This document shows, one piece after another, positions 783 to 48,304 of a DNA stretch of 64,000 nt. The stretch comes from an uncultured Bacteroidales bacterium (GTDB lineage: Bacteria; Bacteroidota; Bacteroidia; Bacteroidales; UBA932). The DNA is taken from positions 52,010-116,009 of the forward strand of contig CAMJBH010000005.1 in the NCBI GenBank assembly GCA_946403855.1. Reading direction: 5' to 3'. The translations under genes and the position numbers were made by a program. Every line of letters starts with the position of its first letter. The stretch's first letter is position 1. The notes beneath the pieces were generated by a model that saw only the letters and a program-made list of their open reading frames with translations, did no database searches and was not told the origin of the DNA.

Positions 783-1619
783 TTATACTATGGTGACGTA
801 GTTCCCTACGAGCGCGGACAGCTCCCAATAGGAAGCGTCAAGGCTCCGGATGCAGAGGTACGTCACGCCGTTTTCAGAGTAGTATTTGCCCTGCACCAGC
901 TCCATGCCTACGGAATACTGGATAGGGTTGTCGATAGTCCCCTCTTCGGCGCTGGCCGCTACCTTGACGTACAGGCTGGCGGCGGTGTCCGGGGTCCAAT
1001 CCTTCTGCACAATGTGGGGCTGGCGGACCTTGTACAGGTCGCCGTCGTACCAGAGGCGACGGCCCTCGGTGACTTTCTGGCCGATGAGGTTGCCCCAGGC
1101 GGGGAAGAGCGCCGGTGTCTGGGCCGCTTCTTCGTCCGGCAGGTCCCCGGCAGATTCGCCGACGAACTCCCGCACCTGCGACATCACGTCGTGAATCGCC
1201 GGGGCAGTCTTCGGGGTCGGCTCCAGGTCCTCGGGCGTGCCGCCGGCGGCGATGCTCTCCTGTAGCTTGACGATATGGGTGCGGGCGTACTCCAGAAGAG
1301 AATCCGCAAGGCTCTTGGCGTACCTGCGCCACTCCTGGAATGTCTCGAACTCGGCGACCTCCTGCTTTCCGGCGGGGTTGTCGAGGTAGTTGTTAATCAG
1401 GGCCTCCACCTTGTCTGCGGGGTAGTATAGCCGGATAATCTCGTTCACCAGAATCGAGCGGTTCCACTCAGCAGGGGGAAGGGTGATGCTCAACCAGCGG
1501 TACTCGCCCTCGTTATCCGTGTCGTTTTTAGCTATCATGACGTTCACCGTCGCTATTTTCTGCCCGTATTTCGTCACTATGGTGACAGGGTCAGGCTGCT
1601 CTCCGTAATTCCAATTCAT
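783..1619 (-). CDS. Phage tail/fibre-associated protein with CBM5/12-like carbohydrate-binding segment
   Basis: 278 aa; C-terminal segment GRRLWYDGDLYKVRQPHIVQKDWTPDTAASLYVKV resembles the chitin-binding (CBM5/12-like) fold common in phage tail proteins. Confidence 0.6.
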   Translation of the reverse strand: MNWNYGEQPDPVTIVTKYGQKIATVNVMIAKNDTDNEGEYRWLSITLPPAEWNRSILVNEIIRLYYPADKVEALINNYLDNPAGKQEVAEFETFQEWRRYAKSLADSLLEYARTHIVKLQESIAAGGTPEDLEPTPKTAPAIHDVMSQVREFVGESAGDLPDEEAAQTPALFPAWGNLIGQKVTEGRRLWYDGDLYKVRQPHIVQKDWTPDTAASLYVKVAASAEEGTIDNPIQYSVGMELVQGKYYSENGVTYLCIRSLDASYWELSALVGNYVTIV

Positions 1620-2973
1620 ATTCGTAGTGTTTGAAAATGACGTTATCGTATCTGTGTTGGGGTTTGACGTGGACCACCAGCGCCCGCCGGGTGACGGAGC
1701 AATAGCGGTAGAAGTAATGCAGGGAGGCGAGCGGCTTTGTCCTGACGTTGTAGCTGTAGGCGTGGCTCATCAGCCCCAGATAGGAGTTGATGCCGTTCAC
1801 CGCGTGCTCAAGGTCGCGGGACAGCTCCAGGTCCATGCCCTTCTCCGCAATCCGCCTGCAAATCTTCTCGGCCCGGTGCAGGGTCTCAAGGTAGTGGCCG
1901 CGTGTGGTGTTCGATATGTACTTGCGCCCGGGCCGCAGGGACATGCCCACATAGTTCATCCCCTTGCGGGCCTCCTGTATATAGAACTTCTTTTCGTGCA
2001 GGTGCAGGCGAAGCTCCCGCCAGAGGAAATCCCGCGCAATGACCCTGAACGCCAGCAGGCGCTCCTTGCTCTGGTCCGCAGCCGGGAAGTCATCGACGAA
2101 CCGCTCATACTCGCCGCCGCTCTCCGCGAAGTAGGCTATCGCCATATCATCGAAGAAAGACATATAGAAGTTGGCGAGCAGCTGGCTGGTGAGGTTCCCT
2201 ATCGGCATTCCCACGTTGGGGTCCGAATCGAAGAGGCTCTTGCCCTTCGGCAGCTTCTCCCAGAGCGAGAGGTCGCCGGTGCGGACGCAGTTGTTCTGGG
2301 GGCAGTGGAAGACCGTTATCCGCGTCAGGTACAGCAGCGTCTCGATATCGTCGCCGGTGTAGTTCTCACGGATGAAAGGCTCCAGCTTGGCCCAGAGGAT
2401 GCGCTTGTCGATGCTCATAAAGAACGCCTGCACGTCGTACTTCGCAAGGTAGGCCATGCGCCTGTAGTCGGCGCTCACCCGGGCAATCTTATCCTGCATG
2501 GTCTCGATGGCCAGCAGGGTCCCGTAGCCCTTGCGGCAGTTGTACGAGACATTGCCCTGGGCGATGAAACGCGCCTCCAGAAGCGGGTTTATCCGTATGG
2601 CAATCCAATGCTGGACGATGCGGTCACGGAACGCCGCCGCGAATATCTCGCGGAGCCGGGGGCGCTTCACCACGAAGCAGGTGCTCGTGGACGGCTCGTA
2701 GGTCTGCGAATAGACCTCCCCGATAAGGTTGTACAGGTCCTCTTCATAGTCGATGCGGTACTCCCCGCACTGGGTTGAGGAAAGTTTCTTGTGTATGCAA
2801 TCGAGGTAGGCATCCACCCATCCCGCCACATCCTCATAATCAGTTGCGGCCCACGCCCGCACAGAGTTCTGGTTGTTCTTGTTGTTGTTGTTGACGTTGC
2901 CATTGGAAGCGTTGACGTTCCAGGCGTTGTTCTCGGAGTTCTCTGTGGAGGTAGCTTCGCACACTCGTGACAT
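1591..2973 (-). CDS. DGR reverse transcriptase (true start uncertain; ORF extends to 3093; a GTG start near 2829 would exclude the TR)
   Basis: RT motifs: KRPRLREIFAAAFRDRIVQHW, MPIGNLTSQLLANFYM, catalytic FVDD in EYERFVDDF, KKFYIQEARKGMNYVGMSL. Located beside TR, Avd and VR. Confidence 0.93.
   Translation of the reverse strand: MSRVCEATSTENSENNAWNVNASNGNVNNNNKNNQNSVRAWAATDYEDVAGWVDAYLDCIHKKLSSTQCGEYRIDYEEDLYNLIGEVYSQTYEPSTSTCFVVKRPRLREIFAAAFRDRIVQHWIAIRINPLLEARFIAQGNVSYNCRKGYGTLLAIETMQDKIARVSADYRRMAYLAKYDVQAFFMSIDKRILWAKLEPFIRENYTGDDIETLLYLTRITVFHCPQNNCVRTGDLSLWEKLPKGKSLFDSDPNVGMPIGNLTSQLLANFYMSFFDDMAIAYFAESGGEYERFVDDFPAADQSKERLLAFRVIARDFLWRELRLHLHEKKFYIQEARKGMNYVGMSLRPGRKYISNTTRGHYLETLHRAEKICRRIAEKGMDLELSRDLEHAVNGINSYLGLMSHAYSYNVRTKPLASLHYFYRYCSVTRRALVVHVKPQHRYDNVIFKHYEYELELRRAA
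2845..2951 (-). repeat. DGR template repeat (TR)
   Basis: 107-nt segment matching 3559-3665 and 40972-41078; all mismatches fall on T of the + strand (A of the coding strand); coding strand is AAC-rich (ENSENNAWNVNASNGNVNNNNKNNQNSVRAWAA). Confidence 0.96.
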
Positions 2974-3055
2974 AACTACGTTGTCCGGGGTGAGCCCGAG
3001 CAGCGCAGTGGTGCGACCATCTGATATCAATGAGGATAGACTAATCATAACAACC

Positions 3056-3451
3056 TTAATCATTATGAACATTAGTGGACCCTTCTGCGGCATTGACGCA
3101 CTGAATACCCTTCATAATGAATCCCGCCTGCGAGGCGATATCATGGAAGAGCTTCAGGGCGCGGGCGTACTGCTTCTTTGACACGACCTTACGACGAAGG
3201 AAGACACGGTAAATGGTCTTGACTTTCGACATCTTCAGCGCGAAAGCCTCCATACATTGAAGCTCATGCGCACCTTTTTGCTCCTTTTTAAGTGCGAGAT
3301 ACAGGAAATCGAGCGCGTCGTAGAGCGCATCCATAACCTTCTCGCCAGAAATGCGGTTTGGCAGGGACTTCGGGATACGTTCGACCAGCTCAAAGGTCAG
3401 TTCGAGCAGTTCTTCCGTCTTCCTGTAAATGGGTGCCTGCGCCGGTTGCAT
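3056..3451 (-). CDS. avd: DGR accessory variability determinant (Avd-like, four-helix bundle)
   Basis: 131 aa, helical and basic (IYRKTEELLELTFELVERIPKSLPNRISGEKVMDALYDALDFLYLALKKEQK...), located between VR1 and TR/RT as in the BPP-1 DGR layout. Confidence 0.88.
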   Translation of the reverse strand: MQPAQAPIYRKTEELLELTFELVERIPKSLPNRISGEKVMDALYDALDFLYLALKKEQKGAHELQCMEAFALKMSKVKTIYRVFLRRKVVSKKQYARALKLFHDIASQAGFIMKGIQCVNAAEGSTNVHND

Positions 3452-3515
3452 ACACTTGAAACTTTTTAATTGTTTTTAGGATTATTCATATAACTTCTCT
3501 TGCCCTCGCACATCT

Positions 3516-3539
3516 GCCCGCGTCGGAGACGACGCGGGC
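3516..3539 (-). promoter_or_regulatory. Hairpin/cruciform downstream of VR1 (10-bp stem, GAGA/TCTC tetraloop)
   Basis: GCCCGCGTCG-GAGA-CGACGCGGGC, 19 nt beyond the VR1 invariant end, matching the known DGR target-recognition hairpin type. Confidence 0.85.
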
Positions 3540-3552
3540 GACGGCCAAGATA

Positions 3553-6500
3553 TCAGAATGCGGCCCACGCCCGCACAGAGTACTGGTAGGACTTGCTGAC
3601 GTAGTAGACGACGCCACTGGAAGCGTAGACGCCCCAGGCGACGTTCTCGGAGTACTCTGTGGAGGACCAGTGGTAGGCGGTCGTTACGGTGTATATGCCA
3701 GCGTTGACTGCCATCTGGAAGGAGCCGTTCATGTTGTGCCAGACGAAGCGAGCCAGCTCACCTTCAGCAGGGAGGAACCAATGATGCGCCTTGAACTTGT
3801 CAGCCAGGACCTCACCGGCCTTGACCGTAGGCTCGTAGGCGTGGCAGAGGCTCGCGGCCGGGAAAAAGAACTGCTGGTACTTCGCGCCGGATTCGGCGGC
3901 GACAGCGGCCATGTTGTCCAGCAGTACCTGCATTTCGGTCTTATTCCCGACAATCATAGGCACCAGAGCGGCCATGTCCACGGCGCTGTCGGTCATCACG
4001 ATATCGCGGTGGTGGATAATCTTGATGGTGTTAACCAATCCCCACGGCACCATGTCGCCGACGGCGATGTGCAGGTCGTCGAAGTATTGGGAGTGCTGCT
4101 CATAGAGCGCCTGCGTCACCTCCGTATTGCCGATTTCCGCCAGAACATCGTTACCAGAGAACACCGCGAAGCCGTCGGGCTGGTTTTCGTCCAGATATCC
4201 CGCTTCCGTGGTGTAGGAAACGCCTCGCGTCGTCTTGTTTGTCAGGAACGGGTTATTGTAAGCGGAATACTCCGTGTCCTCCAGCGTCACGCCGGCCACG
4301 CCGTTTGAGGCATTGTTGTACAGGCCCCAATAATGGGAGGCCAAGACGGTGAGCGCCGCGCCTACGCCGTGCCGGGGATTGTTGGGGTCAACCCACGTCA
4401 CCTGCATGATGGGGGTCATCGCATCGTCGTAGTAGTCCAGTACCTGCCCGTTGGCATAAACAAGGTCTCCGACCTGCGGCATGTGCTCGTAGAAGGCGAC
4501 CTCGAAGGTGGCGGAGCGGACAGTCCCGGATGTGAGAGTGACCTGCACGGTGACGGTGGCCGTCGGGCCCACGTCCTCCGTGCTGACATTCTGCACAGAC
4601 ACTACGCCTGTCTTGGCGTTGATGGTCGCATAGGCGTTCGCGGATATCGACCAGGCGATAGACTTGAAGTTGTTGGCGTACTGGCTGTTCGGAATGAGCT
4701 GGAGCGGGTAGTTACCGGTGGCATCGAGGTAATGCTTGCCGTATATCTTCACGCTCGCAAGGTTGATATCCACATAGGTGATGTACAGGTCGTTCGTCGA
4801 ATCGTCCACGTCTCCCCAAGCGTCGATATACGCCTGCTTCGTGGCGAAGGTCACGCGGTTGTTGCCGGTGATGTCGATATGGCCCCGGAGGTCTGCGGAG
4901 AGGCTGGCGAGCCATGTCACCATACCCGCGCCGCTCAGGGTCCAGTCCACGCCGTCGATGCGCACGCCGCCAGTCAGCGGGGCTTCATCCTCGTAGCACT
5001 GCTGGATGATGGCCAGCGAGCTGATGTTGCCAGCAGCAGGCGCGACGATGCGGAGCGATTCAAGGAGGGTAGCCCCTTCGAGGGTCAGGGTGGCGAGGTT
5101 GGGCTGGTTCCCCACGGAAAGGTCGGTCAGGCCGGAGCCCAGCTGCACAGAGGTCAGCAGGCGGCTCTCCGGCAGAACGATGCCGTTGATGGAGGCACAG
5201 CCACGGATATCCACGGAGGCGAGGCGCACGCAGTCGGTGAGCCTGAGCGTGCCGCCGATGCGGCTACTCCCGTTGAGGTTGATGCTCTCCAGAAGCGGGG
5301 CGTTGAGCACCAGCGACGTGGGCCTGAAGTTCGGCTTGGTGGAATCCGTCGGCGATATGATGAGGTTCGTCAGGCGCTTGGCGGTAATCTGGCACTCGCG
5401 GCTGTCCTTGACGCTGATGTTCCCAAGGTTGCCCAGGGAGCGGTAGTAGTTGGTGCCGTAGAGGGCGCAGGCGGTGTCACCCTGCACGGGCGTTCCGCCG
5501 GTGAGGTCGAAGTTGACGGCCACGCCCGGCTTGCAGCGCTGGCGCAGCGCCTTGTTAGTCTGGCCGACACGACCGCCAGGCCACAGGTACTGATGGGGCA
5601 CAAGGCCGATGAACTGGATTTCGGACGAATTGCCCGCCACGTCGGTGGTCGCCTCGATACCCAGCAGGGCCGATGCGTCAGGCAGGCCGATGTTGCCGGA
5701 ACTGCCGGAAGAGACGGAGAAGTTGCCCCATTCCGCATAGCTGGCCAGCATCACCAGGCGGCGCTTCATATACTGGAGCTCGCTCTGGAGCTGGTCACCC
5801 ATCGACTGCGAGATAGGGCGCACGCCACGGTCAGAGACGAAGCCGATGCTCTCGGGGCCCTCGTAGCGGATGCGGGCGGTCTCGTTGTAAGCCACGGCGG
5901 GAATCCTCTTCTGGATGGAGAAGAAGTATTTCCAGATGCAGCCCCAGGGCGTAGGACGGTCGGCGCTATCAACCCAAGGTATGTTTTCCGTAGAGGATGC
6001 GAGCGAGGACATGGCCGTGAAGATGCTCTTGAACGTCTCGCGGATTTCGCCGGTCCCCTCGTACATGGCCTCGCAGGCGTTGAACAGGGCATTTGCGCCG
6101 CCCTCGTAGAGAGCGACCTGCGACCCTTCAGCGCACGGGTTCTGGCGGTCGATGTAGTAGGGCTTCGTCTGGAATCCGGAATTATCCGTCGCAAAGATGG
6201 TGTCCATGTCATCCTGCGAGAAGAACCACTTGAGCGTCGTCGGGTCAAGGGTGTAGTAGGTGTTCTTGGAACAGTTGTCGGAGCCAGCGATGAGCTGCTG
6301 GGTAAATGCGTAGTGGAACTTGAGGGAATCCACGTTGATGATATCGGCAGCGTTCTCGCGGGCGTGCTTGGCGATGGACGCGATAAAGGCGGCGTTCATG
6401 TCCTCCCACTCGCCCGGGTTGGCGGCAACGTCATCCGGGAACTCCGTGGAGAGGTTGCGCACCTCCGTCTGCTCGTTCACGTCGTCCCATCCTGCCTCCA

Positions 6501-9500
6501 CCCAGAGCTGGTCCACGAAGTCATAGCGGCGCAGCTTGTAGGCATCATCCCCGGCGGTACACCACCAGAGCCAATCACGTGCGGAGGTCTGCTGGTCCGA
6601 GGCCATGAAGCCGCCCGCGCCGGTCCAAGGGCCGACCCAGACCTTGATACGGGGATTATGGCGATAGAAGAAATTGATAAACTCCTTGATTTTTGCCTCG
6701 ACAGCGACGGATGGGCCCTTCAGGGACTTGGTTGTGCGCTGCATGTTGGCATCGAGCACGGCGAAATCCCGCGTCACGGTCTTGCAGCGGTCAAGGTCGA
6801 GGTTCACGGCCCCGTTGTACACCCAGCCCGCCACCTCGCCGTCTTCCTCTTCCACGGTGATGCGGTTGGACTGCCAGGGCACGCGCATATCGGTAAGGGG
6901 GAGGTTGTTGTCGGCTCCCTCAATCATGCAGAACATCGCATGGTCGTTTTTCTTGTAGCCCCACGTCGGGTCGTCCATCTTACCGGCCCCGAAGGTCATA
7001 GGCCCCTGGAAGACCGGCGCGGGCTCGTTGTCGGCCTGGGTGAAGTACAGGAAGAGCTCCTGGTACTTCGCCACCCTCGCCTTGCTGTTCTGCTGCTGGA
7101 TGGACGTAGCGCCCACGACGGCCCGGTGAAGGTCGTTATACAGGCGGCAGCTGCCCATGAGGTGCGACTGCATGGAGGATGCGTAGTTGATTTTGCCGAC
7201 GAGCTTCGTCGCGTAGGGCACGCCCGGGACGCTCTGGTACTGCGCACCGCGATACATGCCGTTCCCGTCAATCCAGCCGTCCACGACCTCGGCATAGCCG
7301 GGGTGCTCGACGCTCTCGGTCCAGCCGGTCACGTCCTGATGGATTCTTTCGATGGCAACAAGGATGGTGTCGGTCACGTCCTTGAGCTTCGTCTGGATAT
7401 TGGAGTAGTAGTAGGTGTTGGCGGTCGAACCCTGACGCGAAGCCTTCAGGCTCTTCGTCTCCTGGCAGATGGTCCCGGAGTGCTCGGGTATCTCATGGCC
7501 ACTCTCGTCGTACACGTGAATCTCCCACCAGCCGGACTGCTTGGCGGTCAGCTCGTGGTAAGGCTGGACACCGTGCCAGATGAGGACGTTCACGCCCTTC
7601 TGCTTGCACAGGTCGGCGCTCACAAGGCTGTTCGGGCCGAGGATGGCGTTGGCGCTGCGGAAGTCGTTCTTTTCCTGCGCCGTCGGCAGGGTAGCCACAT
7701 AGTCGTTGAGCACGTCGGCGCTGGTGAGGGCTCCGTTGTTGCCCTTATAGACGCGGATGCCGTAGATGTCGATATCTGCGGCGTGCTGGCCAATGACGAT
7801 GTTCCCGCCGTTGCGCCACCATTGCCCGGCCTCGGTCTCAAAGACAAACTCGCGGTTAATAACTCCGTTGATAAACACACGACACAGAGGCATGGCGCTA
7901 CCGCCAGCGGCCCCGGCGCGAAGCTGGGAAACGATGTTGATGGCGATGCGGACGCGCTCATCTTCCTGCCAGCGGAAATCCTGCGATTCCTCCGTTACCT
8001 TGGTCGCGGTCATAACAGCACCGACCAGCGGCTTCATCTTCAATCCGATGTAACCGGCGGCGCTGGCGTAGTTCTCAAGGGCCGTGATGCAGGGCGTATC
8101 CTCGTCGGTGATGTTGCGCACCTTCAGGTCCAGCTCAAGGGTGACGTTGGAGTTCGGATTACCGTTGAACGAATCCAGCCAGTCGTAGCCGAACGTCACT
8201 TTCTGGCCCGCCAGAAGACGCAGGACACGTTGGCCGTCCTCCGCTTCCAGCCAACCGTCGGTAAGCCACGAGAGGCCCTCGAAAGTGGCCGTTACGCCGT
8301 CGATGGTCTCCACGTTGTCAGTACCACCGGCATTCTTCGCGGAATTGTTGCGGGTCTTGGGATTCAGGACCCAATCGGCCCCGCCGGTGGGCGCGAACTT
8401 GTCGCTGTTATCCACGGTGATGGCCGTGCGGCTCCCGCTCTGCACGCCGTCCACGATGACGGAAAGGTAGGCGTACAGCGTATCGTTCACGCTGTCCTCA
8501 ATCTCCACGGTGGCGTTCTGGGCGTAGGACGTGCCCGGGACGGCCAGAATGGTCTCATCCATATAGACCTCGTTCCCGTTGTAGTCGGTGAGCTTGAAGC
8601 GCACGGGGACGGTCTCGCGCCCGGGTGCATAGACGGACCACGAGAAGAACTGCACCGGCACGTAGTTCTGCACGGAGGTGCGCAGGTTCTCGATGAGTAC
8701 AACAGGGTCGATGCTCGTACCAGCATCCACCACCACCTGATTGACGACATGCTCGCTCTCGATGGTCCCGCCGGACCCGCCAGCCGAGCAGGTAAGCCAC
8801 GCCTCGATGGTCTTTACGCCGGCGGTAAGGAGGCCGTAGATATCGCTGTCATCGTCGGCCTGACCGCGCCACGTCTGTAGCTCGCTGGTGTATTCGTTGG
8901 CCCCGATGTTGAACGTCTTGGTATAGGTTCCCCTGCTGCCGATGATGCTCACGTGGAGCTGCCGGGCGACGGAGCCTGTGAGAATATAGGCGAGCGGCAG
9001 GGCCGTCACCTGCGTAGCGTCGATGGCCGTGGAGTAATCCAGGGCGAACTCCAGCGTCAGGGTCGTGTAGATGATGTTGCTCCACGTAATCCAGGCGCTC
9101 GTCGCGGTGGAAAGGATATTGCCCTCTTCGTCTGTGACGGCGAAGCTGGCCCGGACGCGAATCTGCTGCGGGTTGGTGTTGGAGAAATACTTTCCGATGT
9201 CGAAGGTATCATACACCGTGTCGTTGGTCTCGCGGGACGTGATGGAATCCGTTCCCACGGTCTCCCATGTGGAACCGCCGTCAACGGAGCGCTGGAAGGT
9301 CAGGATGCCGGATATACCGGCGTTGATGAGCGTGCCGTTGTCGTTCTGGATGGAAGAGAACCGCAGGCCGGTGAGGTGGCGCTTCTCGACAGAGACAATC
9401 TGGTTAGAGACGGTCTCCGAGCACACGAGGCGGGCCGAATAGGTCACGCCGTGTTCCGTGCTGATGGGGATGGCGATGTCCTGGAGCAGCTTGCTGGCGT

Positions 9501-9780
9501 GGGTCGTTGGGTTCTCGACGTAGCTGTCATAATCCGCTTCCGTGGCGAAGCACCAGATATGATAAAACCCATCCTGCTGTTTGGCCTGCGGGATGGTGAT
9601 ATATCCGAACTTGGTGCCGAAGGTCGCCTTGATGAACGCCTCTACCGCGTCGCCGGAGAAAGGCAGGTTGTTCGCCGGGTCATTCTTCCAGCTCTGGGAC
9701 ATTGATGTGATGCTGTTGGGGCTTGTTCTTGCCATATAGTTGTGATTTAGTAGGGTTCTAAATTCCTTTCCAAGGGTCAT
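3553..9780 (-). CDS. DGR target protein 1: large phage tail/baseplate receptor-binding protein with C-terminal C-type-lectin (FGly/SUMF1-like) variable domain
   Basis: 2,075 aa in the tail module; C-terminus HHWFLPAEGELARFVWHNMNG...YHWSSTEYSENVAWGVYASSGVVYYVSKSYQYSVRAWAAF contains VR1. Confidence 0.85.
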   Translation of the reverse strand: MTLGKEFRTLLNHNYMARTSPNSITSMSQSWKNDPANNLPFSGDAVEAFIKATFGTKFGYITIPQAKQQDGFYHIWCFATEADYDSYVENPTTHASKLLQDIAIPISTEHGVTYSARLVCSETVSNQIVSVEKRHLTGLRFSSIQNDNGTLINAGISGILTFQRSVDGGSTWETVGTDSITSRETNDTVYDTFDIGKYFSNTNPQQIRVRASFAVTDEEGNILSTATSAWITWSNIIYTTLTLEFALDYSTAIDATQVTALPLAYILTGSVARQLHVSIIGSRGTYTKTFNIGANEYTSELQTWRGQADDDSDIYGLLTAGVKTIEAWLTCSAGGSGGTIESEHVVNQVVVDAGTSIDPVVLIENLRTSVQNYVPVQFFSWSVYAPGRETVPVRFKLTDYNGNEVYMDETILAVPGTSYAQNATVEIEDSVNDTLYAYLSVIVDGVQSGSRTAITVDNSDKFAPTGGADWVLNPKTRNNSAKNAGGTDNVETIDGVTATFEGLSWLTDGWLEAEDGQRVLRLLAGQKVTFGYDWLDSFNGNPNSNVTLELDLKVRNITDEDTPCITALENYASAAGYIGLKMKPLVGAVMTATKVTEESQDFRWQEDERVRIAINIVSQLRAGAAGGSAMPLCRVFINGVINREFVFETEAGQWWRNGGNIVIGQHAADIDIYGIRVYKGNNGALTSADVLNDYVATLPTAQEKNDFRSANAILGPNSLVSADLCKQKGVNVLIWHGVQPYHELTAKQSGWWEIHVYDESGHEIPEHSGTICQETKSLKASRQGSTANTYYYSNIQTKLKDVTDTILVAIERIHQDVTGWTESVEHPGYAEVVDGWIDGNGMYRGAQYQSVPGVPYATKLVGKINYASSMQSHLMGSCRLYNDLHRAVVGATSIQQQNSKARVAKYQELFLYFTQADNEPAPVFQGPMTFGAGKMDDPTWGYKKNDHAMFCMIEGADNNLPLTDMRVPWQSNRITVEEEDGEVAGWVYNGAVNLDLDRCKTVTRDFAVLDANMQRTTKSLKGPSVAVEAKIKEFINFFYRHNPRIKVWVGPWTGAGGFMASDQQTSARDWLWWCTAGDDAYKLRRYDFVDQLWVEAGWDDVNEQTEVRNLSTEFPDDVAANPGEWEDMNAAFIASIAKHARENAADIINVDSLKFHYAFTQQLIAGSDNCSKNTYYTLDPTTLKWFFSQDDMDTIFATDNSGFQTKPYYIDRQNPCAEGSQVALYEGGANALFNACEAMYEGTGEIRETFKSIFTAMSSLASSTENIPWVDSADRPTPWGCIWKYFFSIQKRIPAVAYNETARIRYEGPESIGFVSDRGVRPISQSMGDQLQSELQYMKRRLVMLASYAEWGNFSVSSGSSGNIGLPDASALLGIEATTDVAGNSSEIQFIGLVPHQYLWPGGRVGQTNKALRQRCKPGVAVNFDLTGGTPVQGDTACALYGTNYYRSLGNLGNISVKDSRECQITAKRLTNLIISPTDSTKPNFRPTSLVLNAPLLESINLNGSSRIGGTLRLTDCVRLASVDIRGCASINGIVLPESRLLTSVQLGSGLTDLSVGNQPNLATLTLEGATLLESLRIVAPAAGNISSLAIIQQCYEDEAPLTGGVRIDGVDWTLSGAGMVTWLASLSADLRGHIDITGNNRVTFATKQAYIDAWGDVDDSTNDLYITYVDINLASVKIYGKHYLDATGNYPLQLIPNSQYANNFKSIAWSISANAYATINAKTGVVSVQNVSTEDVGPTATVTVQVTLTSGTVRSATFEVAFYEHMPQVGDLVYANGQVLDYYDDAMTPIMQVTWVDPNNPRHGVGAALTVLASHYWGLYNNASNGVAGVTLEDTEYSAYNNPFLTNKTTRGVSYTTEAGYLDENQPDGFAVFSGNDVLAEIGNTEVTQALYEQHSQYFDDLHIAVGDMVPWGLVNTIKIIHHRDIVMTDSAVDMAALVPMIVGNKTEMQVLLDNMAAVAAESGAKYQQFFFPAASLCHAYEPTVKAGEVLADKFKAHHWFLPAEGELARFVWHNMNGSFQMAVNAGIYTVTTAYHWSSTEYSENVAWGVYASSGVVYYVSKSYQYSVRAWAAF
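3559..3665 (-). repeat. DGR variable repeat 1 (VR1), 3' end of the 2,075-aa gene
   Basis: 107-nt alignment to TR with 18 differences, all at TR adenines (coding strand); no other substitutions. Confidence 0.96.
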
Positions 9781-9949
9781 CGCCCAGCCAGGGGCGCTCG
9801 CCTATCCATGCTCCGGAGCCGAAACAGGAACGTATCGCCTGCCATACGAGACTGTCACCGCGATACATCTCCTGAACGGACCAGATTTCGCCGTTCGGAC
9901 GGACCTTGTAGCGGGCCGTCATTTCCTTATTTGCACCACGGAACCTCAT
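9758..9949 (-). CDS. Small phage tail-region protein
   Basis: 63 aa, overlaps neighbouring starts and stops as expected for a compact operon. Confidence 0.6.
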   Translation of the reverse strand: MRFRGANKEMTARYKVRPNGEIWSVQEMYRGDSLVWQAIRSCFGSGAWIGERPWLGDDPWKGI

Positions 9950-10641
9950 TGGCTGACAACCTCATAGATGTTGTACGTCTTGTTGGGGTCCTTGGTGGTG
10001 AGGGCTTCCCACTCGTTTTCCGTCAGCCAGACTTCATCCATGCCCAGATTTGCAAGCCAGGCCGCGTATTCCTGCTCCGTGCCCTGATATCCCCCTTCCA
10101 CGGCCAGCTCGTAGGCGCTCTTGCCGTTGGTCGGAAGGTATATCTTGGTGTAGATGGTGGAAGACGTGTTGTTGGTGTAGGATATGACCGTGCGGGACCA
10201 GAGCCATTTGCCAGCCTCCAGCGTGGGGATATTCTCGGACCACGACTCGGGGGCGGTCGCCTGGGCATCGCTCAGGCCGTAGCTGACGACGGAAGAGCTG
10301 ACACCGATACCGTCGGCTCCGTCCTGCCCATCTTGGCCGTCGCGCCCGTCCGCACCCTTCAGGGCGGCAAGTTGCTCTTCCGTAAAGTCCTGATATGTGA
10401 ACGCCGCGCCGGTCGCGCCACGGGATTCAGCGCCGGAATCCACATAAGCGTTTCCGCTCATGCTCCAGATGTACCAATGGCCGTTCGACCCGATATAGGG
10501 AGGTCTTACGATGGCGTGCAGCGGAACCTTCACGGAGCGGTTGTTGGCATCCGTGGCGATGGTATAAAGGCCCTCGAAGGTCGTTGCGGCGGGCAATCCG
10601 CTTATCGGTTGTAATTCAGCGTTCTCAACATCAATAGCCAT
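9946..10641 (-). CDS. Phage tail protein with short collagen-like GXX segment
   Basis: 231 aa; GADGRDGQDGQDGADGIG collagen-like repeat; located in tail module. Confidence 0.65.
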   Translation of the reverse strand: MAIDVENAELQPISGLPAATTFEGLYTIATDANNRSVKVPLHAIVRPPYIGSNGHWYIWSMSGNAYVDSGAESRGATGAAFTYQDFTEEQLAALKGADGRDGQDGQDGADGIGVSSSVVSYGLSDAQATAPESWSENIPTLEAGKWLWSRTVISYTNNTSSTIYTKIYLPTNGKSAYELAVEGGYQGTEQEYAAWLANLGMDEVWLTENEWEALTTKDPNKTYNIYEVVSQ

Positions 10642-27090: not shown

Positions 27091-27119
27091 TTCCTTGTTT
27101 GTTTAACGGGTGTTTGTAG

Positions 27120-27191
27120 TTGCGGGGGCAGGGCTCGAACCTGCGACCTCCGGGATATGGGCCCGACGAGCTACCGCTGCTCCACCCCGCA
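27120..27191 (-). tRNA. tRNA-Met (CAT), phage-encoded, initiator-like anticodon stem
   Basis: TGCGGGG-TG-GAGC-AGCGGTA-GCTC-G-TCGGG-CCCATAT-CCCGG-AGGTC-GCAGG-TTCGAGC-CCTGC-CCCCGCA-A folds into a full cloverleaf. Confidence 0.88.
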
Positions 27192-37915: not shown

Positions 37916-40558
37916 CTATTTGGTTTTGTTGATGATATCCAAGGTGTCCGGGTCCAGCTCGATTTCGATAGGCTCTTCCTCCGGCGGGTTCTGGCGCTCA
38001 TCGTCCAGAAGGTCGAACAGGGTCGGCGAGAGCTGCGCCTGTTCTGCTTCGCGCAGGTATTCGAGGCCGTCCCTCCAGTAGTCGTGATTCAGTTCCGTAG
38101 AGAGGCCCCTGCGGCCCATCTTTACGGCGCAGTATGGTACGGTGGCGATGCCGCCGAACGGGTCGAAAACGAGGTCGCCCTTGTTGGAATAGCGCTCAAT
38201 CAGCCGCTCAACGAGGTCCAGCTGAAGGGGGCAGACGTGCATCTGGAGGGCCTTCTGGCTCTGGCGCGAGTTGAGGGTACGGAAGCGCAGAATGTCGTCC
38301 CAGATGTAGTCCTTATGGCTGGCCGGGTCCACGGCCATGAACGTCTTCGGCAGGCGACCGTAAGCCTCCAGCTCTTCCGCAAAGGCCACATGGTCCTCGT
38401 AGCTGTACAGGTGCTCGGCGCTGAACTTGCGGAAGATGCGACGGATGCCGTCGATATCCATGCCCCGCACATCGTCGAAGGACAGAAGCCGGTTGCCGCT
38501 GCTCTTCCAGTCGGCGTGCGCGTCAATCTGCCAGCGGGCGAGGCTGTAGTCTTCCTTACGCTTGGTTACGGGAACGTCGGCGTAGGCCCGGGAGGTGTCC
38601 GTGGGCAGCTTGCGGAACAGCAGGACATATTCAGGACAGCCGATGCCCATCTTGGTGCCGTCCTTGCGCATTTCGGTATAGCCCAGCCTGTAGGTCTGGT
38701 TGTTTTCCCTCACCACGTCGGTGTCAACGGTGATGCGCCCCATGTAGCGGAAGCCGTGACGGATATAGTGGAACACGCACATATCGCTGAAGGGGTCGAT
38801 GGTCGGCATTCCGTCGCCGGTGGCGTTCCCGAACAGCACGCGGTCCTTGACATGGACGCAGAGCAACCGGCCCGGGCGCAGGACGCGCATCAGCTCCGGG
38901 GTCAGGAAGTCCATCTGCTTGAAAAATTCGTCGTTGTCGGTATTGAAGCCGAAATCGTTGTAGCTGGCCGTGTACTCGTAGTGATTGGAAAACGGAACCG
39001 AGGTCACGATGAGGTCCACCGAATCAGGCTCCATATTCCGGCACTCCAGTACGTTGTCATTGTTGATGGCCCGGTAGAGCTCGCCCTTCTGCTCTTCCCT
39101 CTGGGAGAACATGTAGCGCATCAGCTTCTGCTTCACGTCGAGGCCGAAAAGGCCGTATTCCCGCACGATGCCCGCCATCTTCTCCACGGTCTCGTTGTGC
39201 TGCCGCCACTTCTCCATGAAACTCTTGTAGATTTCCTGCTCGCTCTCAGCATAGACGAGGTACAGGTCCACGGGGTACTGCTGCATGAAGCGGTGGATGC
39301 GGGCGACAGCCTGGAACTTGTCATTGAAGCGGTAGTCGATGAACATGATGGCCTTGTGGCAGTGGTATTGGAAGTTCAGGCCCTCGCCCAGCATTTCGGG
39401 CTTGGCCGCAAGGTACTTGAGCCGTCCTTCCTTGAAGTCCAGCACTATCTGGTCGGCTTCGTCTTCGTCCTGGGAGCCATAGACGGCCTTGCAGCCGGGT
39501 ATGGCCTTGCAGAGGGCGTGGCGCTCATCTTCGAGGTCGTGCCAAAGGAGGAAATGGTCGTCTTTGTTCTCGGGCCGGTTGATGATTTCGACCACGCGGG
39601 CAATCTTCTCCGGCATACTATCGCGGCGTTCCTTCGCGGCTGCGTTGAGGCCCAGGGCGGCATCACGAAACATCTTCATCTGGCCGTCCTGGTCCACGCC
39701 TGCGGAAAGGTGGTCCACGCTCACGACTTCTTCATGCACGCGCAGCTCCGGGAGCTGGTAGCCGTCATCTGGATATCCGAGGTCGGAGGGCTTGGTGAGG
39801 AAGAGCGCCCACGTGGCGACCCACAGCCAGAACTCCTGTTCTTTGTTGGGGTACAGGGTCAGGTTGTTGGCCTTGGTGCTGTCGCGCTTGAAGAAGCGGG
39901 TGAGCGCCTGCCCGGTGTCCATCACGCCCAGATAGCCGCTGTAGTGGATTAGCTCTTTCAGGCGGTTCGGTGACGGGGTGGCCGTGGCGACAAAGCGGTA
40001 CTTCACGCCTGCGAACAAGGGAAGGAACTCTTGGAAGGTCTTGGTGCCATAACCACGGAGCACCGAAGCCTCGTCAAGGGACGTGGCGGTGAAATAGTCC
40101 GGGTCAATGCGCACGCCATCCTCCCCGTCCCGGACGCGCTCATAGTTCGTCACCATGATGGGCGTGGGGCAGGCTTTCACTTCCTGCATCGTCCTGACGT
40201 AGTGGACTTCCATATCAAGCCAGCGTTTCGACTGCTCGATGAACTCGACCACCACGCGCTTGGGGCAGACAATCAGCCCGTAGCCGCCCTCGTGGGCAAG
40301 GATGATGCGCAGAATCTCCAGCTGGGTGACGGTCTTCTGCATTCCGAAGGAACTGAATATAGCCCGTCGCCCCCCCCTAACGGCCCATTTCACGGTGTCC
40401 TTCACGTGCGGGAACAGCGAAGGTGTCAGCTCTTCGTCTGCGACCTCGAAGCCGCTCTGCGAGCTGATGGCCATCTTGTTTTCGAGGAACTCAATGTATT
40501 TGTCTCTTTTCTTCATTTCGGTTGTGTTAAATTTCCCAAGGGAAAGGCTTGTCTGCAT
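37916..40558 (-). CDS. SNF2/DEAD-like helicase fused to DNA (N4/N6) methyltransferase
   Basis: N-term IFSSFGMQKTVTQLE, LIVCPKRVVVEF, TSLDEASVLRG, FVATATPSPN (helicase motifs); C-term DLIVTSVPFSNHYEY and DLVFDPFGGIATVPYCAVKMGRRGLSTELN (methyltransferase motifs). Confidence 0.85.
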   Translation of the reverse strand: MQTSLSLGKFNTTEMKKRDKYIEFLENKMAISSQSGFEVADEELTPSLFPHVKDTVKWAVRGGRRAIFSSFGMQKTVTQLEILRIILAHEGGYGLIVCPKRVVVEFIEQSKRWLDMEVHYVRTMQEVKACPTPIMVTNYERVRDGEDGVRIDPDYFTATSLDEASVLRGYGTKTFQEFLPLFAGVKYRFVATATPSPNRLKELIHYSGYLGVMDTGQALTRFFKRDSTKANNLTLYPNKEQEFWLWVATWALFLTKPSDLGYPDDGYQLPELRVHEEVVSVDHLSAGVDQDGQMKMFRDAALGLNAAAKERRDSMPEKIARVVEIINRPENKDDHFLLWHDLEDERHALCKAIPGCKAVYGSQDEDEADQIVLDFKEGRLKYLAAKPEMLGEGLNFQYHCHKAIMFIDYRFNDKFQAVARIHRFMQQYPVDLYLVYAESEQEIYKSFMEKWRQHNETVEKMAGIVREYGLFGLDVKQKLMRYMFSQREEQKGELYRAINNDNVLECRNMEPDSVDLIVTSVPFSNHYEYTASYNDFGFNTDNDEFFKQMDFLTPELMRVLRPGRLLCVHVKDRVLFGNATGDGMPTIDPFSDMCVFHYIRHGFRYMGRITVDTDVVRENNQTYRLGYTEMRKDGTKMGIGCPEYVLLFRKLPTDTSRAYADVPVTKRKEDYSLARWQIDAHADWKSSGNRLLSFDDVRGMDIDGIRRIFRKFSAEHLYSYEDHVAFAEELEAYGRLPKTFMAVDPASHKDYIWDDILRFRTLNSRQSQKALQMHVCPLQLDLVERLIERYSNKGDLVFDPFGGIATVPYCAVKMGRRGLSTELNHDYWRDGLEYLREAEQAQLSPTLFDLLDDERQNPPEEEPIEIELDPDTLDIINKTK
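40380..40387. repeat. Homopolymer C8/G8 tract within the helicase-methyltransferase CDS
   Basis: Eight C on + strand; encodes VRGGRRA on the minus strand. Confidence 0.9.
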
Positions 40559-40925: not shown

Positions 40926-40949
40926 GCCGGGGTCGGAGACGACCCCGGC
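40926..40949 (-). promoter_or_regulatory. Hairpin/cruciform downstream of VR2 (10-bp stem, GAGA/TCTC tetraloop)
   Basis: GCCGGGGTCG-GAGA-CGACCCCGGC, 22 nt beyond the VR2 invariant end; same loop as the VR1 hairpin, different stem. Confidence 0.85.
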
Positions 40950-40962
40950 GATATGTCAAAAA

Positions 40963-41538
40963 TTACTTAGATGCGGCCCACGCCCGCACAGAGCCCTGGA
41001 CGCCCTTGCCGTAGCTGCCGACGTAGCCACTGGAAGCGCGGACGACCCAGGCGCCGTACTCGGAGCCCTCTGTGGAGGTCCAGTACCACTTATCGAGCTC
41101 TTCGCCGCCGTTCTCGCGCAGGAGCCGGTTGATTTCATCTTTGAAGAAGAGGATGATATACCACTCATCGCGGGAAGGTGCGCCCTCTTTGACGGCTTTG
41201 TCCCAGTTCACTTCCGCACCGTTGAAGCTGTCCTGCATGGCGAGGTACTTGCCCACGACGGGCACGTAGATGCCATTTCCTTCGACGTAGCGGGGCTTGA
41301 GGTCCAGGGGTTCGGGGAGTGGCGGAACGGTGACGGAAGCCTTATTGACCCAATCAATGAACGGCTTTTCGTCGAAGGGTAAATCTTCGCCGTTCAGGAA
41401 CTTGATAAGGCTTTCCTTGATGTCTTCCTCGGTCAGTTGGCGGTTGGCATTGAAAAGCTCGCGGAACTTCTCTTTGTCCTTCTCATCTGCGTTCTGGTAA
41501 GCCGCAAACAGGGCTTCGGGGGTGATTTCTTTTTTCAT
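40963..41538 (-). CDS. DGR target protein 2 (191 aa, C-terminal C-type-lectin-like variable domain)
   Basis: ...WYWTSTEGSEYGAWVVRASSGYVGSYGKGVQGSVRAWAASK contains VR2; N-terminus unrelated to target 1. Confidence 0.9.
   Translation of the reverse strand: MKKEITPEALFAAYQNADEKDKEKFRELFNANRQLTEEDIKESLIKFLNGEDLPFDEKPFIDWVNKASVTVPPLPEPLDLKPRYVEGNGIYVPVVGKYLAMQDSFNGAEVNWDKAVKEGAPSRDEWYIILFFKDEINRLLRENGGEELDKWYWTSTEGSEYGAWVVRASSGYVGSYGKGVQGSVRAWAASK
40972..41078 (-). repeat. DGR variable repeat 2 (VR2), 3' end of the 191-aa gene
   Basis: 107-nt alignment to TR with 23 differences, all at TR adenines. Confidence 0.96.
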
Positions 41539-41569: not shown

Positions 41570-42082
41570 TCAGAAGGGGAGGTCATCTGTCGGCGGGTCG
41601 GTGAAGCCAGCGGGCGCGGCCTGCTGGGCCATCTGGGAAACGCTCTGCGGGGTGAACTGCGGCTGTGCCGGTGCGGCGGTAGGTTGGCCGTACTGCTGGC
41701 GCTGCTCGCTCATCTGGCGGGCGGTGTTTATCATTCCGGCGGCTTGGAGTTCCTGCCTGGAGCCACACAGCTGGAGGTTCTGGACCACGACCTCGGTAGT
41801 CCATTTCCGCTGTCCGTTCTGCTCGTATTCGCGTGTGCGCAGCTTGCCGATGATGCAGACCTGCGTACCCTTGTGGACGTAGTTTTCCGTGACGGTGGCG
41901 AAGGTGCCAAAGGCGACGATGCTGTGCCATTCGGTCGTTTCCTGACGCTGGCCCTGCTTGTCCTTGTAGTATTCGGTGGTGGCGAGGGAGAACATCGCCA
42001 CCTTGCTGTTGTTTTCGAGGTAGCGGACCGTCGGCTCCTTGCCGACGTTTCCGAGAAGCATTACCTGATTGATGCTTGCCAT
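41570..42082 (-). CDS. ssb: Single-stranded DNA-binding protein
   Basis: MASINQVMLLGNVGKEPTVRYLENNSKVAMFSLATTEYYKDKQGQRQETTEWHSIVAFG...; C-term DDLPF. Confidence 0.95.
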   Translation of the reverse strand: MASINQVMLLGNVGKEPTVRYLENNSKVAMFSLATTEYYKDKQGQRQETTEWHSIVAFGTFATVTENYVHKGTQVCIIGKLRTREYEQNGQRKWTTEVVVQNLQLCGSRQELQAAGMINTARQMSEQRQQYGQPTAAPAQPQFTPQSVSQMAQQAAPAGFTDPPTDDLPF

Positions 42083-42096
42083 TGTTGCGGTGTGTT

Positions 42097-42369
42097 TTAA
42101 TCTGTTTCCTGTTCAGGGAAGAGGGTGGAGGACGGGGCCTGCGGCTCTTCCAAAAGTTCGTAGTAGGTATCGTTGAGCGTCTTGCCGGTCCTGATGCGGC
42201 CCAGATTTTCCAGTTCTCGGGCCGTTTCGGGCAGTCTGGCGCTGTTTTCGGGCTTCAGGCGTGGAATTACCCAGACGGACAGGCCGAACGTCGGGAAGCG
42301 GCGTTTTTCGGTCCTCTCGCGCCTGATGTCTTCAAGCGCCTGGAGCAGTTCTGTCTGTTGCGGTGTCAT
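42097..42369 (-). CDS. Hypothetical phage protein
   Basis: 90-aa ORF in operon. Confidence 0.5.
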   Translation of the reverse strand: MTPQQTELLQALEDIRRERTEKRRFPTFGLSVWVIPRLKPENSARLPETARELENLGRIRTGKTLNDTYYELLEEPQAPSSTLFPEQETD

Positions 42370-43358
42370 TTGAATGATGCGCGGGGCATTATCTTGTTGG
42401 AAAACTCTATCTTCAGCTTGGGGTTGATGGCGTTGCGGACGATGGCCGCGCCGGTTTCATCTTCCTTGAAGTAGGCGACCAGACCCTTGGGGTAGTGCAG
42501 TACCACGGTGTCGGAGCCTTGCAGGAACTCGATGCCGTTGCGGTCGTCGATGCAGAGCGGGGCGAGGTCCGGGCGCAGCTTCAGCAGGTCGTCGTAAATC
42601 TGCCGGAGGACGGAAATGTATTTGTCGCGGTCCTTGGGGCAGCGGTCGTCCTGTGCCCACATGCCAGCGAGCGCGAGCCGCTGGGCCGGGGTGTCGAAAA
42701 CTACGTCGCCGGAGCGCCAGCCCTTGCCCTGATTCTTCCTGATGAACTTCTCAACCTCTTTGGCCGGTCGCCAGATATTCGCCCAATAGAAGGAGGCGAG
42801 GAAGGCGGAACGCTCGCTCTGCTGCTGCTCTTCGGGCAGCGCCAGAAAGTCAACCTTCTCGCGTGCGTGCGCGGGGGCGTGCGGAATATTATTATTAAGA
42901 ACAGTTGTTGTTATTGTTGTAATACCTTCTTCCCTTTTAATACCTTCTTCCCCTTCTTTTGCTATTGTGCCTGTTGTTTGATTGTTGATTGATTGTTGTC
43001 CGTTTGTTGCTGGATTGTTATTTGATTGTTGGGCGCTCTCTTCCTTTGCTTGGTAACTCTCGAAATTACAGATAGTTATAATTGTGTATTTGTTTGTTGT
43101 TTGCCTGTTGATTATCTGCGAATTTTCAAGCCGTGCAAGGGCGGTGCGTAGATTCTGGGCTGTTAGATTGGTCTTTTCGGAAAGTTCAGCTACCGTGGTG
43201 GCGAGCTGGCCGCGCTCCAGGACAATGCCCCTCCACTTCCGCTGCTCGATGCTGGCAGACAGAAGCAGATAGACGAACAGCTGCACCATCTTGGAATCGG
43301 TGAACCATTCCCAGTCCAGAAACTTCCGGTAGAGCTTTATCCAACCGCCTACAGACAT
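42366..43358 (-). CDS. Phage replication initiator/replisome organiser-like protein
   Basis: MSVGGWIKLYRKFLDWEWFTDSKMVQLFVYLLLSAS...RGQLATTVAELSEKTNLTAQNLRTALARLENSQII (winged-helix N-terminus). Confidence 0.75.
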   Translation of the reverse strand: MSVGGWIKLYRKFLDWEWFTDSKMVQLFVYLLLSASIEQRKWRGIVLERGQLATTVAELSEKTNLTAQNLRTALARLENSQIINRQTTNKYTIITICNFESYQAKEESAQQSNNNPATNGQQSINNQTTGTIAKEGEEGIKREEGITTITTTVLNNNIPHAPAHAREKVDFLALPEEQQQSERSAFLASFYWANIWRPAKEVEKFIRKNQGKGWRSGDVVFDTPAQRLALAGMWAQDDRCPKDRDKYISVLRQIYDDLLKLRPDLAPLCIDDRNGIEFLQGSDTVVLHYPKGLVAYFKEDETGAAIVRNAINPKLKIEFSNKIMPRASFK

Positions 43359-43360
43359 GG

Positions 43361-43534
43361 CTACTTCTCTTCTTCCATTGGCTTTTTCTTCTCAAGCGCA
43401 TTGGCAAGCAACCGGGCGCGGCGGCGCAGGTTGTGCAGCTTGTAGCCCTCTTCGTGAGCCGGACGGCCCTCGCTGTAGAAGGCCGTGAGCATGGAAATGA
43501 GCTCGTCGCGGTGCCGGTTGCTTATCATGTACAT
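43361..43534 (-). CDS. Small hypothetical phage protein
   Basis: MYMISNRHRDELISMLTAFYSEGRPAHEEGYKLHNLRRRARLLANALEKKK. Confidence 0.5.
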   Translation of the reverse strand: MYMISNRHRDELISMLTAFYSEGRPAHEEGYKLHNLRRRARLLANALEKKKPMEEEK

Positions 43535-43539
43535 AGCGC

Positions 43540-44484
43540 CTACTTCTTCAGGAGGAAACGACGGTCGCCGGGGCCGGTCTTGGTGAACTCTTCTGCCATC
43601 TTCGGGTGCTTGGCGGCGAAGCCGTCGAGGTCGAAGAAAGTCTTGTCCTTGCTGGACTTCCACGTGGCGAGGGTCAGGCCCTTGTAGGTCAGGACCTCGG
43701 CATCACCCATGAAGAGCTTCAGCTTGTCGGCCAGCTCGCTGGAAGCGTCCTTGGCGGCTTTCTCTGCGGCCTTGGCCTCGACCAGCTGGGCGGCGACGGT
43801 CGAAATCTCTTCGGTGGCCTCGATGCTCTTGCCCTTCGCGGAGCGGGGTGCGCGAATCATCACGTCTTCCACGCTCATATTTTCAGGCACAGCGTCGCCG
43901 ATGATGTAGTCGGTCCAGAACTTATCGACCTCTTCGAGCATGAACTTGAAGAAATCGGAATCGAAATCGTAGTTGACAAAGCCGAAGTCGCGGCCCTGCG
44001 TGAGCCAGGCGAGCGCCCCGGTGTCCTTCTCTGCGGTTCCAAGCTGCCACTGGAGCTGACAATACCAGTGCTGCGGTATGCTGTCGGCATCGACGGGCAG
44101 CTGCGTTGTCTTGCATTCCAGTATGCCCTTGTTAGCCTCGTTGCGGGTCATGTTGGGCAACCAGAAGGTGCGGTCAGGCGACACACGCAGGTACTCGCGC
44201 AGGCTGTTCACGATAAGGAAGTCTTCGGCGCTGCGCTTGATGATTTCAACGCCCGTGGAATCGGCGTAGAAACGCGCCACGGCATCTTCGAGGTAGTGCC
44301 CGGCCTTCATATAGAAGTTCTCTTCCTTGGGCGGGTCTATGCCCTTCTTGCGCCTCCAGAGCTGGTAAGGGGTTTCCCAGGGGTTAGCCCCCAGGATGGT
44401 GCCGACTTCGGAAGAGCCTATGCCCCCCTTGCGGCCTTCGAGCCATTCTGCCCGGTCCTTGTAACGAATAATTTGTACACTCAT
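43540..44484 (-). CDS. YqaJ-type viral recombinase/exonuclease
   Basis: GRKGGIGSSEVGTILGANPWETPYQLWRRKKG, GILECKTTQLP (E-x-K), PQHWYCQLQWQL. Confidence 0.88.
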   Translation of the reverse strand: MSVQIIRYKDRAEWLEGRKGGIGSSEVGTILGANPWETPYQLWRRKKGIDPPKEENFYMKAGHYLEDAVARFYADSTGVEIIKRSAEDFLIVNSLREYLRVSPDRTFWLPNMTRNEANKGILECKTTQLPVDADSIPQHWYCQLQWQLGTAEKDTGALAWLTQGRDFGFVNYDFDSDFFKFMLEEVDKFWTDYIIGDAVPENMSVEDVMIRAPRSAKGKSIEATEEISTVAAQLVEAKAAEKAAKDASSELADKLKLFMGDAEVLTYKGLTLATWKSSKDKTFFDLDGFAAKHPKMAEEFTKTGPGDRRFLLKK

Positions 44485-48223: not shown

Positions 48224-48297
48224 GGTCCGGTAGCTCAGTTGGATAGAGCAACAGCCTTCTAAGCTGTGGGTCTTGGGTTCGAGTCCCAACGGAATCA
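48224..48297 (+). tRNA. tRNA-Arg (TCT), acceptor stem partly mispaired
   Basis: GCTC-AGTTGGATA-GAGC, ACAGC-CTTCTAA-GCTGT and TTGGG-TTCGAGT-CCCAA arms are perfect; acceptor GGTCCGG/CGGAATC has mismatches. Confidence 0.85.
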
Positions 48298-48304
48298 CGC
48301 TTCC

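Follow-up and report, generated by a model that had tools for sequence, protein, structure and literature searches.

A two-target diversity-generating retroelement in a Bacteroidales prophage, with its template inside the reverse transcriptase reading frame

A stretch of 64,000 nucleotides (nt) from an uncultured Bacteroidales bacterium (the window; assembly GCA_946403855.1, contig CAMJBH010000005.1, positions 52,010 to 116,009) holds what is very probably, at about 0.85, a genuine diversity-generating retroelement (DGR) of the adenine-specific kind in a gut-bacterial prophage. Its template repeat (TR) is matched by two variable repeats (VRs) that differ from it only at adenines, VR1 beside the cassette at the end of a tail-region gene and VR2 among replication genes, and the template lies in frame within the open reading frame (ORF) of the reverse transcriptase (RT). 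In DGRs, RT and the accessory variability determinant (Avd) make adenine-mutagenized cDNA from TR RNA, and this cDNA replaces the VR. Phage DGRs are mostly described as diversifying tail proteins. A second target turns up repeatedly at a distance from the tail genes, in many cases among replication genes, which suggests that an intracellular protein is hypermutated too.

All parts of the cassette lie on the minus strand. In order of transcription they are the target 1 ORF (9780-3553, 2075 amino acids), VR1 (3665-3559, 107 nt), avd (3451-3056, 131 amino acids), TR (2951-2845, 107 nt with 36 adenines), and the RT ORF (3048-1591, 485 amino acids). TR and VR1 differ at 18 of 107 positions, every time at a TR adenine (18/18; hypergeometric P = 8e-11), in 17 AAC codons and 1 AAT codon. 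The RT product matches the PHROG reverse transcriptase family at 1.3e-59 and contains FVDD and IGNLTSQ, which correspond to the YVDD-like and GxxxSQ motifs of DGR-type RTs. The top Protein Data Bank match of its AlphaFold2 (AF2) model is the DGR RT 8ub7 (E 1e-15), a fold like that of the bRT of Bordetella phage BPP-1. The avd product matches PHROG Avd at 9.7e-8 and Pfam bAvd at 1.2e-4, the latter under the curated cut-off. Target 1 ends in a C-type-lectin-like Lcl_C domain (7e-6), and its gene adjoins tail and tape-measure genes. The original prediction, a reading of the letters alone, had placed RT, TR, avd, and VR1 where re-analysis also finds them, had counted the same 18 adenine differences, mostly in AAC codons, and had named both RT motifs. 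Its conclusion that the adenine-specific DGR is intact is strongly supported, RT and avd being free of stops and frameshifts. As found there, the system is of the ordinary kind and was correctly recognized.

The same prediction called the cassette complete. Every part that it named is present, but the system extends beyond the cassette: a second VR, which it missed, lies at 40972-41078 on the minus strand. A search of the genome with its own TR detects this repeat 38 kb from the cassette. All 23 differences between VR2 and TR fall at adenines (24/24 over a longer 111-nt match), and the final 22 nt are the same in TR, VR1, and VR2, resembling an initiation of mutagenic homing site. The idea of a chance repeat was dropped in view of the 23/23 adenine differences, a hairpin of its own, and recurrence in other phages. 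VR2 ends the gene for target 2 (40963-41538, minus strand), a protein of 191 amino acids composed of an N-terminal module and a C-type-lectin-like domain. The match to Lcl_C is weak (0.0076), and the target 2 family profile matches HbP1 (8q4e) at 2.9e-8.

Both VRs are followed by a potential hairpin or cruciform with a 10-bp GC stem, and none follows TR. The VR1 hairpin (3516-3539, minus strand) reads GCCCGCGTCG-TCTC-CGACGCGGGC and the VR2 hairpin (40926-40949, minus strand) reads GCCGGGGTCG-TCTC-CGACCCCGGC, so that the loop is shared and the stems differ. Across the surveyed DGRs, a stem of at least 7 bp follows 57 of 69 VRs versus 1 of 44 TRs (3.5% in shuffles). Homing in BPP-1 requires a hairpin structure after the VR, with a loop consensus of GRNA on the sense strand (PMC3240598). 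The window hairpins differ in this respect, as the sense loop is TCTC and the GRNA-type GAGA is on the other strand only.

Target 2 is set in a replication module. It adjoins a gene for single-stranded DNA-binding protein (SSB; 41570-42082, minus strand; Pfam SSB 1.4e-30), with genes for a DnaD-like helicase loader and a RecE-like exonuclease further on (42366-44484, minus strand) and a helicase-DNA methyltransferase fusion on its other side (37916-40558, minus strand). Similar pairs recur. In an adenine-specific scan, a VR1 by the cassette and a remote VR2 occur together in the window, in a sister prophage described below (G101), in G048 and G032, and in Bacteroides phages F2/F4 and BS-TP1. 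Among IMG/VR relatives, gathered with an RT alignment as query, 12 of 46 records carrying related RTs have a remote VR2; single-protein IMG/VR searches with the RT or target 2 gave no confirmed relatives. In a tree of related phage DGR RTs, the records with a remote VR2 span about ten separate branches and all major clades. The annotated neighbors of VR2 genes include DNA polymerase A, primase, helicases, SSB, RecE, DnaD-like loaders, and methyltransferases, and no tail family appears near them in the complete Pfam list or among the 25 commonest PHROGs. DGRs, TR/RT overlaps, and two-target phage DGRs are already known; the recurrence of the remote target across lineages is what the present work adds.

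Two of these records stand apart. G105 and G107 needed a gapped search, and their mismatches there are not confined to adenines; G107, where the mismatches are mixed, is the weakest case. A TR-like stretch of G107 in the RT frame (L049, ~9820-9980) encodes Tyr/Val at the positions of Asn codons, as though the template itself had been overwritten or had decayed. In BS-TP1, another reverse transcriptase (phrog_1423, 1e-19; L030:7020-8348, gp79), annotated as a tail protein, is encoded a few genes away from the VR2 gene.

Inspection reveals no obvious secretion signal in target 2, and the protein is probably cytoplasmic. Its variation would most likely alter how it binds an intracellular protein of the host or of a rival element. 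A part in counter-defense is the leading guess, at a little short of even odds. It is somewhat unlikely that target 2 is instead a minor virion protein or accessory adhesin encoded by an early-module gene, with both VRs serving host range. Hedzet et al. took both targets of the related Bacuni phages as adhesins, by similarity to a Bacteroides ovatus fimbrial-tip protein (PMC8143477), and the VR2 family profile weakly reaches the fimbrial-tip-type structure 4eps (E 0.053). However, target 2 proteins are small (122-411 amino acids by ORF calls), show no obvious signal for secretion by inspection, have no tail domain, and are encoded among replication genes wherever the neighbors can be named. 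Variation directed against competing phages rather than host defenses, by superinfection exclusion or the binding of rival proteins, is an unlikely alternative that draws on the position of target 2 in a prophage early module and on the swap of its N-terminal module between sister prophages with flanks ~98-99% identical; no repressor-linked or lysogenic-expression context has been shown.

The template itself appears to be translated. The RT frame of the window is already open upstream of TR. It has an ATG at 3048, seven bases past the avd stop, and the stretch from TR to the RT fold lacks an in-frame ATG. The ORF that starts at this codon comprises a leader (residues 1-32), a segment encoded by TR (residues ~33-68), and the RT fold (residues ~71-485), with ~30 nt of coding sequence separating TR from the fold. 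In the AF2 model, block means of the predicted local distance difference test (pLDDT) are at most 30 through residue 70, and the RT is modeled with confidence from residue 71 onward. Most likely, therefore, the RT ORF starts at 3048 and contains TR in frame, and the template is translated as a leader that the model predicts to be disordered, as suggested by the in-frame TR, the upstream ATG, and the low confidence to residue 70. TR is in the RT frame without an intervening stop in 38 of 44 surveyed DGRs (37 by script and G110 by eye). Of the 37 identified by script, 36 contain an upstream ATG, before TR, and 34 contain no ATG past it. In most of 36 relatives, the ATG chosen as the start is no more than 30 nt from the avd stop.

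An alternative is that RT begins at a non-ATG start after TR, with the leader serving as an RNA element only and the match of frames being incidental. Two in-frame GTG codons after TR in the window, the predicted disorder of the leader, and a raised codon identity in leader and TR (0.63-0.64 versus 0.35-0.41 in the RT core), which shows constraint on the RNA, are consistent with such a start. Nevertheless it is distinctly improbable. At a chance of 1/3 per record, 38 of 44 in frame without a stop corresponds to P = 5e-13 if the records were independent, which they are not. All six exceptions have an ATG between TR and RT, many records lack any in-frame ATG, GTG, or TTG there, and the upstream ATG lies at the avd stop, with a 4-nt ATGA overlap in 8 of 36 relatives. 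As a separate observation, the RT of phage F4 (L031:3619-4749) lacks a residue block (the QGNVS...GYGT region) that its relatives have; a 57-bp difference between F1/F4 and F2 has been published (PMC8143477).

The constraint on the TR-encoded leader is mainly at the RNA level. Codon identity for same-residue pairs is 0.63-0.64 over residues 10-68, falls to 0.43 at residues 69-90, and is 0.35 beyond them, within the 0.35-0.41 of the RT core. The leader contains a conserved element, AATGGGCGNNNNACT (window form GATGGTCGCACCACT; 3004-3022, minus strand), and an RNA hairpin just 5' of TR and inside the RT ORF (2975-3009, minus strand), whose pairs covary across phages. Its helix has eight pairs, with 90.8% of cells paired, changes on both sides in six of the eight, and a covariation of 0.606 as compared with 0.206 when shuffled and at most 0.148 when slid. 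A reading of NGRxT in the leader as chiefly a protein motif was set aside, because third codon positions are conserved there and the pairs covary. At Rfam thresholds, no DGR-related family was found in the leader/TR region of the window or in eight relatives; weak matches to a thermometer and a CRISPR repeat were rejected as far under gathering scores.

By analogy, this hairpin may do the job of the flanking RNA in BPP-1, either recruiting RT-Avd or stopping reverse transcription. In BPP-1, a structured spacer 3' of TR and before brt folds and recruits RT-Avd, and a motif in avd stops reverse transcription (PMC12875486). The original prediction had likened the gene order to the layout of BPP-1 (mtd-avd-TR-brt), and the likeness to BPP-1 holds for the gene order VR-avd-TR-RT, the adenine-specific VR, the RT fold (8ub7), and the GC hairpin after the VR. 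It fails for the RNA layout, since TR is here in frame inside the RT ORF. The window lacks a long non-coding spacer from TR to RT, shows little synonymous constraint downstream of TR, and has a covarying hairpin 5' of TR and two targets. A coding template with a conserved 5' hairpin offers a contrast to BPP-1 as to which parts of the RNA recruit RT and begin or end cDNA synthesis.

Evidence for activity comes from the sister prophage, which is carried by the goat-abomasum Bacteroidales metagenome-assembled genome RGIG1532 (L001, G101). TR and avd are 100% identical between the two, the RT core is 98.9% identical, and the DNA around VR2 is ~98% identical. VR1 differs at 17 sites and VR2 at 14, all of them TR adenines (17/17 and 14/14), and none of the 71 non-adenine positions has changed in either VR. 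The sister's own VR1 and VR2 differ from TR at 17/17 and 17/17 adenines. Past activity of the DGR is indicated because TR and avd are identical in the sister and yet VR1 differs only at TR adenines; the pattern in these two assemblies would be the trace of repeated homing from an unchanged template. That both VRs were diversified long ago by a DGR now silent in the prophage is compatible with their being known from assemblies, but it is very improbable, given an RT, avd, and TR that are intact and near-identical in the sisters and VRs that differ only at TR-adenine sites.

Two further differences separate the sisters. Outside its lectin domain, target 1 (3901-9780 versus L035) is 85.7% identical, and the adjoining tail gene is 98.1% identical. 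In target 2 the N-terminal module (41311-41538 versus L034) has been replaced, and the upstream SSB gene and the lectin scaffold are ~98-99% identical.

Taken together, these data suggest a phage DGR that was active recently and serves two targets from one template. RT and Avd would copy TR RNA to cDNA, placing random bases opposite template adenines. This cDNA would overwrite the 3' end of the tail gene at VR1 and, acting in trans over 38 kb, the 3' end of the small early-module lectin-like gene at VR2, each VR being recognized through the shared 22-nt 3' end of the repeat and the downstream GC hairpin. RT would be translated from the ATG beside the avd stop straight through TR; every RT mRNA would therefore carry its template, and one RNA could be both mRNA and template. 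Target 1 would most likely vary host adsorption, and target 2 an intracellular interaction. If so, hypermutation of an intracellular protein would let phages keep pace with intracellular defenses in a programmed manner. We advance only tentatively, and as rather doubtful, the wider proposal that many DGRs of Bacteroidota phages make up a class marked by a template translated as the RT leader, by an RNA recognition hairpin shifted to the 5' side of TR, and by the use of one template to diversify an adsorption protein together with a dedicated early cytoplasmic binder directed against host defenses.

Several observations weigh against the interpretation as a recently active two-target DGR. The signs of activity come from two assemblies. 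RT starts vary among the records: in G112, G119, and G130 an in-frame ATG stands close to the start of the RT core, and in G110 and G126 no ATG precedes TR. The AF2 model of target 2 is poor (pLDDT 41), too poor for a fold search, and no homologue was found that gives the protein a function. VR2 was detected in only 12 of the 46 IMG/VR records, although many of these are fragments, so that its absence means little. Finally, the VR2 neighbors in G122, G133, G135, and G151, tested singly, gave no known function; early-module placement is therefore not shown for every lineage.

Known systems share some of these features. The Bacuni phages F1/F2/F4 of Bacteroides uniformis also have two targets, one by the cassette and one distant, with variation almost only at adenines in both and the distant target adjoining DNA polymerase A; they differ in that TR occupies a separate small ORF overlapping the RT start and the near target has 253 amino acids (PMC8143477). 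The Quimbyvirus DGR likewise pairs a structural C-type-lectin target with a non-structural one, which lies near methyltransferases and a nuclease (PMC8008677), but its RT is reported as split over three overlapping frames and its second target is on the opposite strand, in a defense-related island. Group 3 cassettes of the DiGReF survey resemble the window in that TR overlaps the end of the annotated RT ORF; the survey text searched records the overlap only, and no description of the frame lock, the start by the avd stop, or the covarying leader hairpin was found in it (PMC3521204). Neither the recurrent early-module target nor the translated template with its hairpin appears to be well described, and this variant deserves specialist attention.

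The host element is most simply read as a prophage of ~57 kb integrated at a tRNA-Arg gene. This gene (48224-48298, plus strand) marks the right prophage end as attachment site, and a partner repeat of 62 nt, 93.5% identical, lies beside an integrase gene ~57 kb to the left, outside the window. The phage region contains terminase, portal, major head, tail, recombination, and replication genes, and a tRNA-Met gene (27119-27191, minus strand). Downstream of RT, positions 783-1619 (minus strand) encode a phage protein of 278 amino acids with a weak match to the carbohydrate-binding family CBM_5_12 (8e-5, below cut-off).

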